From the NCBI RefSeq assembly GCF_014193425.1, contig NZ_JACHZG010000001.1, positions 682,001 through 746,000 on the forward strand: a stretch of DNA of 64,000 nucleotides, in the 5' to 3' direction. The position numbers and the translations under genes were made by a program. Under the pieces are notes generated by a model. It was given only the letters and a program-made list of their open reading frames with translations. It searched no databases and was not told the origin of the DNA. The DNA is from Microlunatus antarcticus (GTDB taxonomy: Bacteria; Actinomycetota; Actinomycetes; Propionibacteriales; Propionibacteriaceae). The stretch's first letter is position 1, and every line of letters begins with the position of its first letter. Positions 2,004 to 49,051 of this stretch are shown one piece after another.

Positions 2004-3425
2004 ATGGACCGCGTGGTGATCATCGGCGGTGGGCCGGGTGGGTACGAGGCGGCGCTCGTCGCCAGCCAGCTGGGCGGAGCGGTCACGCTCGTCGAGGACC
2101 AGGGGCTGGGCGGGTCGGCGGTGCTCACCGGAACCGTCCCGTCGAAGACGTTGATCGCCACCGCCGAGGTCATGTCCGAGGTACGGGAGTCGGCCGAGCT
2201 CGGGGTGCGTCTGCACGCCGACGGCGACGGCTGCGCGGGCACCGCCGACCCCGACCGCGGCGTCACGGTCGACCTCGCGGCGGTCAACGCGCGGGTGCTC
2301 GACCTCGCGACCAAGCAGTCGGCCGACATCACCGAGCGGCTGCTCGGCGAGCACGTCACCCTGGTCGACGGGCGCGCCCGGCTCGACGGGCCGGAGCACG
2401 TCGTCGCCACGCGCGCCGACGGCACCGAGGAGGTGCTCGACGCCGACATCGTCCTGGTCGCGACCGGCTCGCGGCCGCGCGAGCTGGACACCGCCCGGCT
2501 CGACGGCGAGCGCATCCTCAGCTGGCGCCACCTCTACGCGCTGACCGAGCTGCCCGAGCGCCTGATCGTGGTCGGCTCCGGCGTGACCGGGGCCGAGTTC
2601 GCCAGCGCGTACGACGCCCTGGGCTGCGAGGTCGTGCTCGTCTCGTCGCGCGACCGGGTGCTGCCCGGCGAGGACGCCGACGCGGCCCAGGTGCTGGAGG
2701 ACGTCTTCGCCCGCCGGGGGCTGACGGTCATGTCCCGCTCCCGCGCCGCGAGCGTCCTGCGCGACGGCGACGGCGTCGTGGTCACGCTGACCGACGGCCG
2801 CAAGGTGACCGGGTCCCACTGCCTCCTCGCCGTCGGCTCGATCCCCAACACCGAGGACCTCGGGCTGGAGACGACCCGCGTCGAGACCGACCGCTACGGC
2901 TCGATCGTGGTCGACCGGGTCTCGCGCACCAAGGCCCGCGGCATCTACGCGGCGGGGGACTGCACCGGGGTGCTGCCGCTCGCCTCGGTCGCGGCGATGC
3001 AGGGCCGGATCGCGATGTACCACGCGCTCGGCGACGCGGTCGCCCCGCTCGACCTGCTCACCGTCTCCTCGAACGTCTTCACCAGCCCCGAGATCGCCAC
3101 GGTCGGGGTGAGCCAGCAGCAGGTCGACGACGGGCTGGTCCCCGTCCGCGAGGTCGTGCTGCGGCTCCGGGGCAACCCGCGGGCCAAGATGCAGGGCAAC
3201 CGGGACGGGTTCGTCAAGGTGTTCTGCCGCAGCGTGACCGGCATCGTCATCGGCGGCGTCGTCGTCGCCCCGCGGGCGAGCGAGCTGATCTACCCGATCG
3301 CGCTCGCCATCTCGCAGCGCCTGACGGTGGACCAGCTGTCCGCGTCGTTCACGGTCTACCCGTCGCTCTCCGGCTCGATCGCCGAGGCGGCGCGGCGCCT
3401 GCACGGGACCCGCTCGATCACCTGA
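2004..3425 (+). CDS. lpdA: NAD(P)H-quinone dehydrogenase of the LpdA (Rv3303c) type
   Basis: A 473-aa flavoprotein of the pyridine nucleotide-disulfide oxidoreductase family: FAD motif 'GGGPGGYEAA' at the N-terminus, NAD motif 'GSGVTGAEFA' mid-protein, 'AAGDCTG' FAD contact, and a dimerisation domain ending 'YPSLSGSIAEAARRL'. It matches remembered Mycobacterium tuberculosis LpdA along its whole length, a protein that reduces quinones and not lipoamide. The site that carries the CxxxxC redox disulfide in true lipoamide dehydrogenases reads 'GGSAVLTGTVPSKT' here, with no cysteine at either position. That excludes dithiol chemistry and supports the quinone-reductase role. Its TGA overlaps the next ATG (TGATG). 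Confidence 0.9.
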   Translation: MDRVVIIGGGPGGYEAALVASQLGGAVTLVEDQGLGGSAVLTGTVPSKTLIATAEVMSEVRESAELGVRLHADGDGCAGTADPDRGVTVDLAAVNARVLDLATKQSADITERLLGEHVTLVDGRARLDGPEHVVATRADGTEEVLDADIVLVATGSRPRELDTARLDGERILSWRHLYALTELPERLIVVGSGVTGAEFASAYDALGCEVVLVSSRDRVLPGEDADAAQVLEDVFARRGLTVMSRSRAASVLRDGDGVVVTLTDGRKVTGSHCLLAVGSIPNTEDLGLETTRVETDRYGSIVVDRVSRTKARGIYAAGDCTGVLPLASVAAMQGRIAMYHALGDAVAPLDLLTVSSNVFTSPEIATVGVSQQQVDDGLVPVREVVLRLRGNPRAKMQGNRDGFVKVFCRSVTGIVIGGVVVAPRASELIYPIALAISQRLTVDQLSASFTVYPSLSGSIAEAARRLHGTRSIT

Positions 3426-46148: not shown

Positions 46149-47267
46149 CTAGATCGGAAAGTTATTCAGGCGCAGAGCCTCCCACCAAGCCGACTGACTA
46201 GAACTGGCCCAGCCGGAATCCACTCCTTTAGCGAATGCCAAACACCCGTCAACGTGGTTGATAAAAGAAAGTAAAGATCGGAAACCCCGATGTTCCGAAT
46301 GGCGCACTAGACCGAACTTTCGCACTCCGCGGATATGCACCTCGACGCGACGGCGAAACTCCGGTAGCAGGCGCACGCTATCTTCGCCGTCTACTAACAA
46401 CCCGAGCACAACATGCCGAGCACCGGGTGGAACTATACGCGTTTTCCGCTCGTGTAGACGGAACCGATGGGCTGCCACAACCCGGCCCACCTCATGGACG
46501 ACGTGGACAAGTTGCGCTCGGTCTAGATCACTACGAATCGAAGACAGCACCATGTCGTCGGAGTATCGCGTGTAGGTAAATCCTTCATTCGTCGCGAGCG
46601 TCGACAAGGCGTCGTCGATCGGTGTGGCGACCGCGTTCGACAATGCACCACTGGTGGGCGCGCCCTGCGGTAGATGCCCTATGACATCCACGTCATAGGT
46701 TGGGATACTGCCACGAGTGGAGGCCCAAGACGAAGATACGCCCGCTCGTGTACAGATGCGGGCCAACTCTAGTGAGACGAGCGCTGAGTACCCTCTCGCC
46801 TCGAAGACGCGGAAGACATCACGTTCTTCAACACTGTCGAAGAAATCATGTATATCAAATTTGAGCAACCATCGGGCGCCAAGGTGTTGCTTGGCGCAAT
46901 CAACAATGCTGCGCTCTTTCTGATATGCATAGTTCGACGGATGCAAGCTCAAGTTCTCGAGAGCTGCATTAAGAATGTAGCGCTGTACGTCCATCAGCAC
47001 GGGTTCAGGAGCCGACAGAGATCGGGTGCCTCCCGAGCGTTTTACGCGCGTAATCGTCGTGTAGGGGTCCCGACGCCGTTGAACAATCTCTCGAAGGTAG
47101 AGGTATGGAGCCCCACTGGAGTGAGCCAGGTGACCAAGACTCAAGATTGGTTTCGCTTGACGCGCCCTACTGAGGGCCATCTGGCGGGAGCTTGCAGTGA
47201 GAACACTCTCAGGTACGCCTGCTTTTCGACCTTCAGTTGTGTATTGGTGAGGAGTCGACGGGTTCAT
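46149..47267 (-). CDS. Retron reverse transcriptase
   Basis: A 372-aa RNA-directed DNA polymerase with the retron/group-II-like core: 'LLKFDIHDFFDSV' (first catalytic Asp), 'LPQGAPTSGALSN', catalytic 'YTRYSDDMVLSS', and 'VVLGLLVDG' in the thumb-proximal motif. There is no intron maturase or endonuclease domain. The length fits retron RTs (300-400 aa). Directly upstream is a structured RNA with a1/a2 repeats, and upstream of that a PRTase-like effector, so it is a retron RT. ATG 47267 overlaps the a2 arm; ATG 47180 ('MALSRARQ') is a plausible later start. Confidence 0.88.
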   Translation of the reverse strand: MNPSTPHQYTTEGRKAGVPESVLTASSRQMALSRARQAKPILSLGHLAHSSGAPYLYLREIVQRRRDPYTTITRVKRSGGTRSLSAPEPVLMDVQRYILNAALENLSLHPSNYAYQKERSIVDCAKQHLGARWLLKFDIHDFFDSVEERDVFRVFEARGYSALVSLELARICTRAGVSSSWASTRGSIPTYDVDVIGHLPQGAPTSGALSNAVATPIDDALSTLATNEGFTYTRYSDDMVLSSIRSDLDRAQLVHVVHEVGRVVAAHRFRLHERKTRIVPPGARHVVLGLLVDGEDSVRLLPEFRRRVEVHIRGVRKFGLVRHSEHRGFRSLLSFINHVDGCLAFAKGVDSGWASSSQSAWWEALRLNNFPI

Positions 47268-47458
47268 CTACTTTTGGTGTTATCCCGACAGGCCAAGCGA
47301 ACGGAAGCCGCAGCCAGCGTCGCCGAGCGATGTTCGCTTGACCACGCGTAGCGTGAGCTTGTCCGCCGGTACACGGTCAGCCGTGACCTCGAGCCAGTTG
47401 GCTCGACGTGCCAGTGCAACGCACCGACTTCTCTAGGTTCGCCACGCGACTCCTCACC
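47246..47458 (-). ncRNA. Predicted retron msr-msd RNA
   Basis: A 213-nt region read from the minus strand, flanked by a perfect 12-bp inverted repeat (GGTGAGGAGTCG, plus-strand 47246-47257, and its complement at 47447-47458), the a1/a2 pairing of retron RNAs. Between the arms lie four short perfect hairpins (stems at 47414-47424, 47389-47406, 47372-47385, 47343-47355), matching an msr. A 12-pair stem follows (47291-47302 with 47332-47343, one G-T pair) with a 29-nt loop, matching an msd. The a1 arm overlaps the effector stop codon and a2 overlaps the RT gene start. No coding potential competes with it. Confidence 0.8.
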
Positions 47459-48725
47459 TCAGTACGAGAGGATAGTACGCCTCCGTCTGTCCGCGAAGTC
47501 GAGCCGTCGCGACGCGGTCGAGCCGACGGGCGTGGCGCAACTCGACTCTGCCACGCGCCGTGATCGAGAGCCCCGCATCCACGAAGTCTGCGTCTTGGAG
47601 GAATTGTATGATCGCCGCGACTTGTGCGTCAGGCAGGGCTAATTGATGGGCAAGGGCCGCGCGAGTGTGGCGACTATAAGCAATGAGTGCAAGAGTTATG
47701 ACGATGGCGTCTGCGGACGTTGTTAGGCGACCGGAGTCTATTGCACGGGCAAGTCTGGCCTGATTCGCCGAACGAGCTGCGGAAGCGAGATCTCTGGGAG
47801 GTCTCGCATAGTAACTTAATTCTTTCGCCAGATCTGCTGGAACTTTGCGACCTGGGAGTAAGGCATGCCAGCCCTTGGTGCTGCGTCGGAGAATAAAAGG
47901 TAGGTTGTTGGGGACGGCGGTATGGGTGAAGAACAGTCCGGCGCTGGCACCGTAACCCAACGCTTCCTTCTGTTGCTTCCTGGGGGTGTACGAAAGGCAC
48001 AGCGCTTCAATCGCTTCACGCTCCTCCTGGGTCCAGGCCGCATCGGAGAATGAGGAAGCGGGTAGGTTGACGAACAAGGCATCGACGTGTTTGCACGCTT
48101 GGACTGCCTTTCGCCCGGCGCTCGAGGCAGCATATGCGACGACGATAATCTCGAGGCGCGCAAAGGACCGCCAGCTGCGGATCCGGGCGTTTCGTGTGAA
48201 GGTGGCCGCGAACTCAATCACCTGTTGACCCGACCCGATGTAGTCGGTGATTAGGACCAATACTTCGCAGCGCCGCGTGGCCAGGGTTTCGAGTTGGTTC
48301 CCAGGGTGTAACCACTGCCCGCGTTCGCGCCCAGGCTGGCTGCCCGTAAAGTCTCGAACTAGGGTGCCGACTGCCGCTTCACTACCCGGTGTCGCCAGCA
48401 AGGGGGCACCCGGGTTAAAAGTGACGTAGGCCACGTGGCTGACTGGTTCGCGGGAGCTCGTGCGAGCACCCAAGTCTTTTATAGCGACTGTCGAATCGAT
48501 ATCATCGAGAGATAGAACTGGTATCAGCGCGCACGCACTGCCCCCGAAGGTGGGCGTAATTGCTTCTATGCTCTCCTTCAGTCCGTGAAACACCTCGGAC
48601 GGGCTCTTGACTTGTAGCGTGTCGAGCAGGAGCTGTGCATGATATCGATCGGTAGTCGCAAAGTTCTTCAGCCACGCTCGGCCCCGCTCCGTATCGCTTG
48701 GTCTCACCGATTGCACAGATGTCAT
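47454..48725 (-). CDS. Retron accessory effector: PRTase-like domain fused to winged helix
   Basis: A 423-aa protein. The N-terminal region ('AWLKNFATTDRYHAQLLLDT') and the motif 'VLVLITDYIGSGQQ' near residue 160 correspond to the phosphoribosyltransferase-like (PRTase-CE) domain, where the DD-x-x-TG loop would hold PRPP. The C-terminal 80 residues look like a winged helix ('RAALAHQLALPDAQVAAIIQ', 'FLQDADFVDAGL'). Such fusions are recorded as accessory genes of one retron class (type III as I recall it). In retrons the RT-DNA keeps the effector inactive until phage interference. Function here is inferred from architecture and position. Confidence 0.72.
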   Translation of the reverse strand: MTSVQSVRPSDTERGRAWLKNFATTDRYHAQLLLDTLQVKSPSEVFHGLKESIEAITPTFGGSACALIPVLSLDDIDSTVAIKDLGARTSSREPVSHVAYVTFNPGAPLLATPGSEAAVGTLVRDFTGSQPGRERGQWLHPGNQLETLATRRCEVLVLITDYIGSGQQVIEFAATFTRNARIRSWRSFARLEIIVVAYAASSAGRKAVQACKHVDALFVNLPASSFSDAAWTQEEREAIEALCLSYTPRKQQKEALGYGASAGLFFTHTAVPNNLPFILRRSTKGWHALLPGRKVPADLAKELSYYARPPRDLASAARSANQARLARAIDSGRLTTSADAIVITLALIAYSRHTRAALAHQLALPDAQVAAIIQFLQDADFVDAGLSITARGRVELRHARRLDRVATARLRGQTEAYYPLVLR

Positions 48726-49051
48726 GATGCCACCGCATCCCGGAACGAGCCGGAGGAGAACCGCTCAGCTGACGGTGTGCGCCTGAGGAAAGCCACTCAC
48801 CCGACGATGCGGCGGACAAGCGGGGTCGGCAAGGCATGGGTGACGGTTCTGTGCGGCACCCCCCCCCCCCCCCCCCCCCCCCGAGTGCTGCATGCGGCGG
48901 GCTCATCGGACGAGGGTTCGAGCGATAGTCATCGTCAGACCCGTGCTCGGCCTTTCGCGGTGGGCCTGAAGGACGAACAACAGCACTGAGGCCCCCCACT
49001 TGGCGGAAACATCGACCGTGGACCCGTTGGTCCGCGGAGAGGATGTTCTGC
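48726..49051. other. Gene-free stretch upstream of the retron
   Basis: Between the effector start and the IS remnant no coding sequence is supported. The region carries the 24-base C tract and probably the retron promoter on the minus strand, although no clear -35/-10 pair stands out. Confidence 0.5.
48859..48882. repeat. 24-base homopolymeric C tract
   Basis: An uninterrupted run of 24 C residues about 135 bp upstream of the retron effector start codon. Runs this long are rare and slip during replication, so the tract might vary in length between cells and affect promoter spacing. An assembly or sequencing artefact is also possible. Confidence 0.9.

Follow-up and report, generated by a model that had tools for sequence, protein, structure and literature searches.

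Does the space between a PRTase-like effector gene and a reverse transcriptase (RT) gene of Microlunatus antarcticus hold the RNA of a retron, and what follows if the stem that closes this RNA reaches into both genes? Retrons are bacterial anti-phage systems whose reverse transcriptase uses part of the retron's own RNA as the template for DNA, and their type system reportedly goes back to Mestre 2020. Here we analyse the interval within a stretch of 64,000 nucleotides (the window) and compare it with related loci. We read it, with a probability of about 0.94, as the msr-msd RNA of a type III-A retron flanked by its effector and RT. The locus is a further member of that type and does not represent a new one. 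The comparisons below establish the genes, the RNA fold and the covariation, and they place the effector stop and the RT start inside the closing stem.

Results

Type III-A effector and RT genes flank the interval

Both genes lie on the minus strand. The effector gene (47454..48725) encodes 423 amino acids, comprising a PRTase-like domain with a DYIGSG loop and a C-terminal winged helix, while the RT gene (46149..47267) encodes 372 amino acids with a YSDD motif and was identified by PADLOC and RVT_1. The preliminary description had placed a PRTase-like effector and a reverse transcriptase on either side of the RNA, and both proteins indeed match type III-A models among the PADLOC profiles: the RT matches PDLC02944 (RT_III-A) at E 1.9e-141 over residues 1-361, the next III-A model following at 2.6e-62, and the effector matches PDLC02933 (PRTase_III-A) at E 3.3e-71. 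Pfam cut-offs were exceeded by RVT_1 (1.6e-18), PRTase-CE and wHTH-PRTase_assc. Each element by which type III-A is recognised is thus present, namely a III-A RT, an adjoining effector with PRTase and winged helix, and a non-coding RNA with complementary a1/a2 arms beside the RT gene.

By eye, in an alignment made without a validated RT, the window's RT has CAKQH, VLG and YSDD at what are presumably the places of NAXXH (region X), VTG (region Y) and YADD, and its departures CAKQH and VLG are a point against the retron reading. A review of validated retron RTs gives NAXXH and VTG in 14 of 16 each, with variants of YADD (PMC6868368); these three motifs are usual for retron RTs and not strictly defining.

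Several further features of the genome were recorded. A run of 24 C at 48859-48882, immediately upstream of the effector gene, is perhaps a sequencing or assembly feature. In the adjoining segment 49432-52037, one gene resembles a type I methyltransferase (MTase_I, 2.5e-189) and one protein matches the defence candidates PDC-S02 and PDC-S14, so the region may be a defence island. A second retron-like RT of 499 amino acids is found in the same genome (L092, G000:C1:1869769-1870551), with RT_other and RT_outgroup as its best PADLOC models.

Covariation of the outer arms across related loci

The interval used for comparisons, 47242..47464 on the minus strand, represents the msr-msd precursor RNA. 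Its 5' outer arm a1 (47447..47458, GGUGAGGAGUCG on the minus strand) holds the effector stop codon at 47456-47454, with the final codons CTG AGG TGA extending into the arm, and its 3' outer arm a2 (47246..47257, CGACUCCUCACC on the minus strand) lies within RT codons 4-8. An inverted-repeat search recovered the perfect a1/a2 repeat described before, 12 nt long, 100% complementary and with a spacing of 189 nt. It forms just the outer half of the closing stem, the inner part being a 3-bp mini-helix past an internal loop. Perfect 12-mer inverted repeats at 100-260 nt spacing amount to 12 k-mer pairs at nine places in the whole window, a1/a2 included, so that the repeat alone is no more than chance would give, and we dropped the attempt to judge it by itself. 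What does stand above chance is where the repeat lies and how its arms covary in homologues.

Among 80 loci with RT matches, nine were used (L001-L008 and L039); L009-L013 and L017 are laid out differently, L015 is incomplete, and the remaining loci, whose RTs are more distant, lie outside the junction comparison. These nine come from Modestobacter (L001), Sphingomonadaceae (L002, L003, L007), Streptomyces atratus (L005), and Arthrobacter, Glaciihabitans and Cryobacterium (L004, L006, L008, L039). Together with the window, three loci from genomes of its class (L093-L095) and four from alphaproteobacterial plasmids (L112, L113, L115, L116), they make up a set of 17. A set of 19 adds L122 and L123, likewise from plasmids, which were found through the effector and not the RT, and spans Actinomycetota and Alphaproteobacteria. 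L114 and L117, near-copies of L112 and L116, are excluded from both counts. Junctions were retained for L005 (a short frame with a weak PRTase end), L003 (cut by a contig end) and L115 (a short effector frame). The other RTs scanned, those of L112, L113 and L116, likewise had PDLC02944 as their best PADLOC model (4/4 with the window's), and PDLC02933 was the best model for the effectors of L002, L007, L112, L113 and L116, that of L005 giving just a weak end match.

All 17 loci place the 5' arm at the end of the effector gene and the 3' arm immediately past the start of the RT gene. The a1/a2 duplexes average -31.4 kcal/mol for cognate arms vs -18.1 kcal/mol for swapped ones, and 0/100,000 permutations were as good. 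The cognate arm was the best of its row in 13 of 17 loci; the window is among the remaining four, its a1 pairing at -30.3 kcal/mol with the a2 of L093 vs -30.2 with its own. Because the arm ends of this first comparison had been chosen by eye, it was repeated with a rule-based scan, which paired 36 nt around the effector stop with each 24-nt segment lying 60-500 nt downstream. This placed the strongest pairing at the RT start in 18/19 loci, the miss being L002, and in the window the margin was small (-26.6 vs -26.2 for the best other site). Covariation of the arms in related loci had been proposed as a test in the preliminary description; it was run, and by both the permutations and the rule the arms covary.

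Interior hairpins and a covariance model

Three msr hairpins and one long hairpin occupy the interior of the RNA, all on the minus strand: hairpin 1 (47410..47428), with 8 bp including two G-U, shows double changes in 7/8 pairs; hairpin 2 (47389..47406), with 7 perfect bp, in 7/7; hairpin 3 (47368..47388), with 5+3 bp and a bulge, in 7/8; and the long hairpin (47291..47343), the predicted msd stem of 12 bp with a structured 29-nt top, in 17/20. The long stem had been claimed before and is borne out as 12 pairs between 47332-47343 and 47291-47302, with 29 nt between the arms and one G-U (92% complementary). The small hairpins are likewise there, while the earlier statement that four of them are perfect is not sustained: the minimum free energy (MFE) structure has one of 8 bp with two wobbles, one perfect of 7 bp, one of 5+3 with a bulge, and a doubtful one of 3 bp. 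With the III-A protein matches, the arm covariation and this order of hairpins, the msr-msd design proposed at the outset is supported.

Folding and a comparison with covariance models had also been suggested earlier. More stable folding than in shuffled sequences was seen for the minus strand (z -4.57; 1/200 shuffles as good) and likewise for the plus strand (z -4.22; 0/200), and no Rfam family matched up to E 5 between 46000 and 48500. Since both strands beat their shuffles, energy cannot pick the strand, and its use for this choice was dropped; gene orientation and homologues decide.

At the apex of the msd hairpin, GTCT is found by rule in 8 of 17 RNAs (L002, L003, L004, L008, L039, L095, L113 and L115), where it may mark a contact site or shared ancestry. 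This frequency is weaker than the impression gained by eye, and we did not retain GTCT as a conserved motif of the msd loop.

Because a MAFFT alignment of 12 complete RNAs failed to line up the hairpins, we turned to an interior-only covariance model, R1, which omits the outer arms and was trained on three close sequences (window, L093 and L001). Run over 39 sources, R1 gave 12 matches at E<=0.001, comprising all three sequences used in training plus nine of the 16 untrained III-A junctions offered to it, near-copies L114 and L117 included. The nine (L004, L005, L006, L008, L039, L094, L095, L116 and the near-copy L117) are all effector-RT junctions. L002, L003, L007, L113 and L115 were missed at E<=1, L112 and its near-copy L114 reached only E 0.16, and chance matches appeared above 0.1, including one on the window's plus strand. 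In a two-locus search of the later-fetched L122 and L123, the junction was found in both (7.8e-6 and 2.9e-5).

Within the window's own genome the sole R1 match is at the retron junction. Under stricter filters, 394 genomes of the class yielded four matches at E<=0.001 (G000, G355, G354 and G119). Of the 18 genomes that have RT matches at 1e-20, these same four carry the closest RTs; G354 and G119 were absent from R1 training. When nine sequences were aligned to the model, an alignment fitted to the structure, double changes occurred in 38/53 pairs and 91.7% of cells pair (0/500 shuffles as high), vs 33-41% pairing in a control with the structure slid along. A three-sequence MAFFT alignment, independent of the structure, has a double change in 13 of 70 predicted pairs. 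A larger alignment, A4, served as a side check only and has weak chance matches inside it (the plus-strand window, L090 and two fragments of L093).

A mini-helix beside the predicted branch guanosine

On the minus strand, CUA of CCUAG (47434..47436) forms the 5' strand of the mini-helix, supported by the model and by compensatory changes in homologues, and the next base, 47433, is the predicted branch (priming) guanosine. The 3' strand, UAG (47268..47270), lies between G47271 and the RT start codon at 47267-47265. The two strands pair in the covariance model and are invariant in its nine sequences. Read by eye across the wider set, the pairing is possible in 18/19 loci, as CUAG/GUAG in 12 loci, CCAG/GUGG in L003, UUAG/GUAA in L007 and L113, and CGAG/GUCG in L116, L122 and L123; it is broken in L115. 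The mini-helix is part of the MFE structure in 12 of 16 sequences tested, the window's own MFE structure being without it, and the energy penalty for imposing it is 1.8 kcal/mol in the window, 1.0 in L093, 0.3 in L002 and 4.4 in L116.

In validated retrons, according to the review, the msr strand of the stem contains the priming guanosine or ends just 5' of it, and the context of this base is mostly TAGC, with CAGA, CAGC, GAGC and ACGC also found (PMC6868368). The window carries a context of this kind, CUAG at 47436-47433 followed by A, so that its priming context reads UAGA, unlike the commonest UAGC. Following the review on where the priming G and its NAG context lie, we predict G47433 as the branch point and 47271/47272 as the template start, the latter placed by analogy with Retron-Eco1; reverse transcription is accordingly predicted to start opposite 47272.

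Both gene ends inside the closing stem

The overlap of the stem with the effector stop and the RT start, already remarked upon in the preliminary description, is present in 19/19 loci compared. Every effector stop falls on the a1 side, with frames short or cut in L003, L005 and L115, and three loci (L007, L095 and L112) use as stop codon the very UAG that contains the predicted branch G. An ATG or GTG of the RT stands directly after GUNN in 16/19 loci, overlaps the mini-helix in L113 and L115, and lies two bases further on in L007. Because the RT gene begins immediately after the mini-helix, a2 codes for residues near the RT's N-terminus, frequently SPH or the like. These positions of mini-helix, RT start and effector stop put both gene ends inside the msr-msd closing stem. 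In a literature search that had the original type-classification paper outside its range, no report of a stem overlapping both genes was found. For L122, on a Rhizobium leguminosarum plasmid, the retron junction predicts an RT start at 3413, far upstream of the annotated one (3695), so the gene is probably longer than annotated.

Distribution of close RTs

A search of 396 genomes of the phylum returned no RT at E<=1e-40 except the window's own. Within the genus, 20 genomes were searched, counting that of the window, and ten have an RT match at E<=1e-10; the best one in the 19 other genomes shows 31% identity (E 1.5e-29), so that the genus provides no near relative for comparison. Three distant RTs apiece came from the phage and the viral collections.

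Discussion

Weighing alternative explanations

Least probable of all, at a chance we consider close to negligible, is that the interval holds an ordinary intergenic terminator or a chance palindrome and no retron RNA. Such a reading could draw on the nine places in the window with perfect 12-bp inverted repeats and on a plus strand that folds nearly as well, but it leaves unexplained why arm covariation and position hold across 19 loci, why the interior model at E<=0.001 matches nothing but retron junctions in 394 genomes, and why so many pairs show double changes; nor would a terminator be expected to extend into the codons of the next gene in every locus. A retron RNA that still folds while DNA is no longer made, that is, a degenerate or inactive remnant, is also very unlikely. 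The window's MFE structure without the mini-helix, in which the base beside a1 pairs elsewhere, is what a remnant might show; against this, both genes are open over their full length, the PRTase loop and the RT aspartates are retained, the outer arms pair perfectly, and the pairs of the mini-helix can still form.

Slightly less weight again is given to a stem that acts mainly as a translational attenuator for the RT gene, with priming elsewhere. The RT start codon and effector end in the stem of every locus would suit an attenuator, and in L004, L006, L008 and L039 a small hairpin ahead of the RT start carries a GGGGAGG-like possible ribosome-binding sequence in its 3' arm. The order of msr and msd hairpins, the NAG context beside the stem and an RT of retron type speak instead for the msr-msd RNA, and the ribosome-binding-like sequence of the window's RT is weak (-3.1 vs -8.7 kcal/mol for the effector), so no common attenuator design is visible. 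A common rule that no ribosome-binding site precedes the RT was discarded: the site is weak in the window, but GGGGAGG-like in the same four loci and strong in L002.

A proposed mechanism and a possible switch

On the retron reading of the interval, gene order and overlap suggest that a single transcript would carry effector, retron RNA and RT. The RNA would fold into three msr hairpins and the long msd hairpin, closed by the outer a1/a2 helix and the CUA:UAG mini-helix, which would place G47433 beside the template start at 47271/47272. The RT would bind this folded RNA, prime from the 2'-OH of what we infer to be the branch base, G47433, and copy the 3' part, mainly the long hairpin. Copying would stop near GGACAAGC (47364-47357), giving a DNA of very roughly 85-95 nt by our estimate; GGACAAGC is partly conserved in relatives. 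RT, RNA and DNA together may keep the PRTase-wHTH effector inactive, and a phage product that disturbs the DNA or the RT might release it. Once freed, the effector would attack a nucleotide-related target, a guess made from its fold, and halt the infected cell.

The way stem and genes are laid out would entail a tight coupling of RNA processing and translation, as had been suggested earlier. Tentatively, and with the odds somewhat against it, we propose that the msr-msd closing stem doubles as a switch that governs its own RT. In such a switch the internal loop, with the branch-point mini-helix on one side and the outer a1/a2 helix on the other, would hold the start codon of the RT; in the open state ribosomes would read the transcript, with the effector terminating and the RT starting, and in the folded state the retron RNA, bound by the RT, would cover the RT's own start codon. 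If this is true, the RT would be under autogenous control and effector, RNA and RT would be made in fixed proportion.

What the locus offers is a well-supported retron RNA with a defined and testable predicted priming site, in a lineage represented here in Actinomycetota and Alphaproteobacteria. Because one closing stem serves the RNA, the effector end and the RT start at once, it is a clean place to study the balance of toxin, RNA and RT, and the covariance model gives a route to close relatives of the RNA without protein searches.

Comparison with known retrons

Type III-A retrons share with the window locus the RT model, the PRTase and winged helix, the order effector, RNA, RT, and an RNA with a1/a2 arms, and we see no difference in kind. 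Retron-Eco1 has an NDT-like effector, an uninterrupted stem, and an RT start outside the stem. Like our prediction for the window, Retron-Eco1 (Ec86) has its priming G at the inner end of a1/a2 and the template start across from it, according to the review (PMC6868368). Retron-Bpu1 of Bacillus pumilus and Retron-Ppe1 of Pseudomonas peli are likewise type III-A systems with a PRTase/WH effector, with RT-DNA bands reported from the host (PMC12548924). In the same report, Bpu1 produced RT-DNA in E. coli, yet gave no defence vs 12 coliphages, and transformation with Ppe1 failed, which its authors presume to reflect toxicity (PMC12548924). Retrons are there described as a toxic effector restrained by RT, ncRNA and RT-DNA (PMC12548924).

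The single-gene retrons of Streptomyces and Actinacidiphila (L009-L013, L017 and L097) resemble the window locus in their RT, at least as judged from L009, the sole one scanned, which also has PDLC02944 as its best model. Their RT frames run to about 705-742 amino acids (L009:4968-7082, L010:4857-7082, and L097), with a C-terminal HELGH in L009 and L010, and L009 shows a weak Peptidase_M78 match at E 0.0012, below cut-off. Possibly these single-gene retrons carry a metallopeptidase effector; a literature search on M78 found nothing apparently relevant. A tblastn search with the window effector found no PRTase beside them. Their RNA of 190-200 nt has a1/a2 arms and a UCAG context (fitted in 6/7, L009 being unmatched by the pattern), and the a1/a2 stem is an uninterrupted 17-20 bp, unlike the two-part stem of the window. 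The open reading frame of L009 has its first RT start codon (4968) beyond the stem; in L010 the frame is open upstream and the start uncertain. The uninterrupted stem of these single-gene relatives, taken with the RT start of L009 beyond it, suggests that embedding of the gene ends in the closing stem accompanies the three-part layout of effector, RNA and RT.
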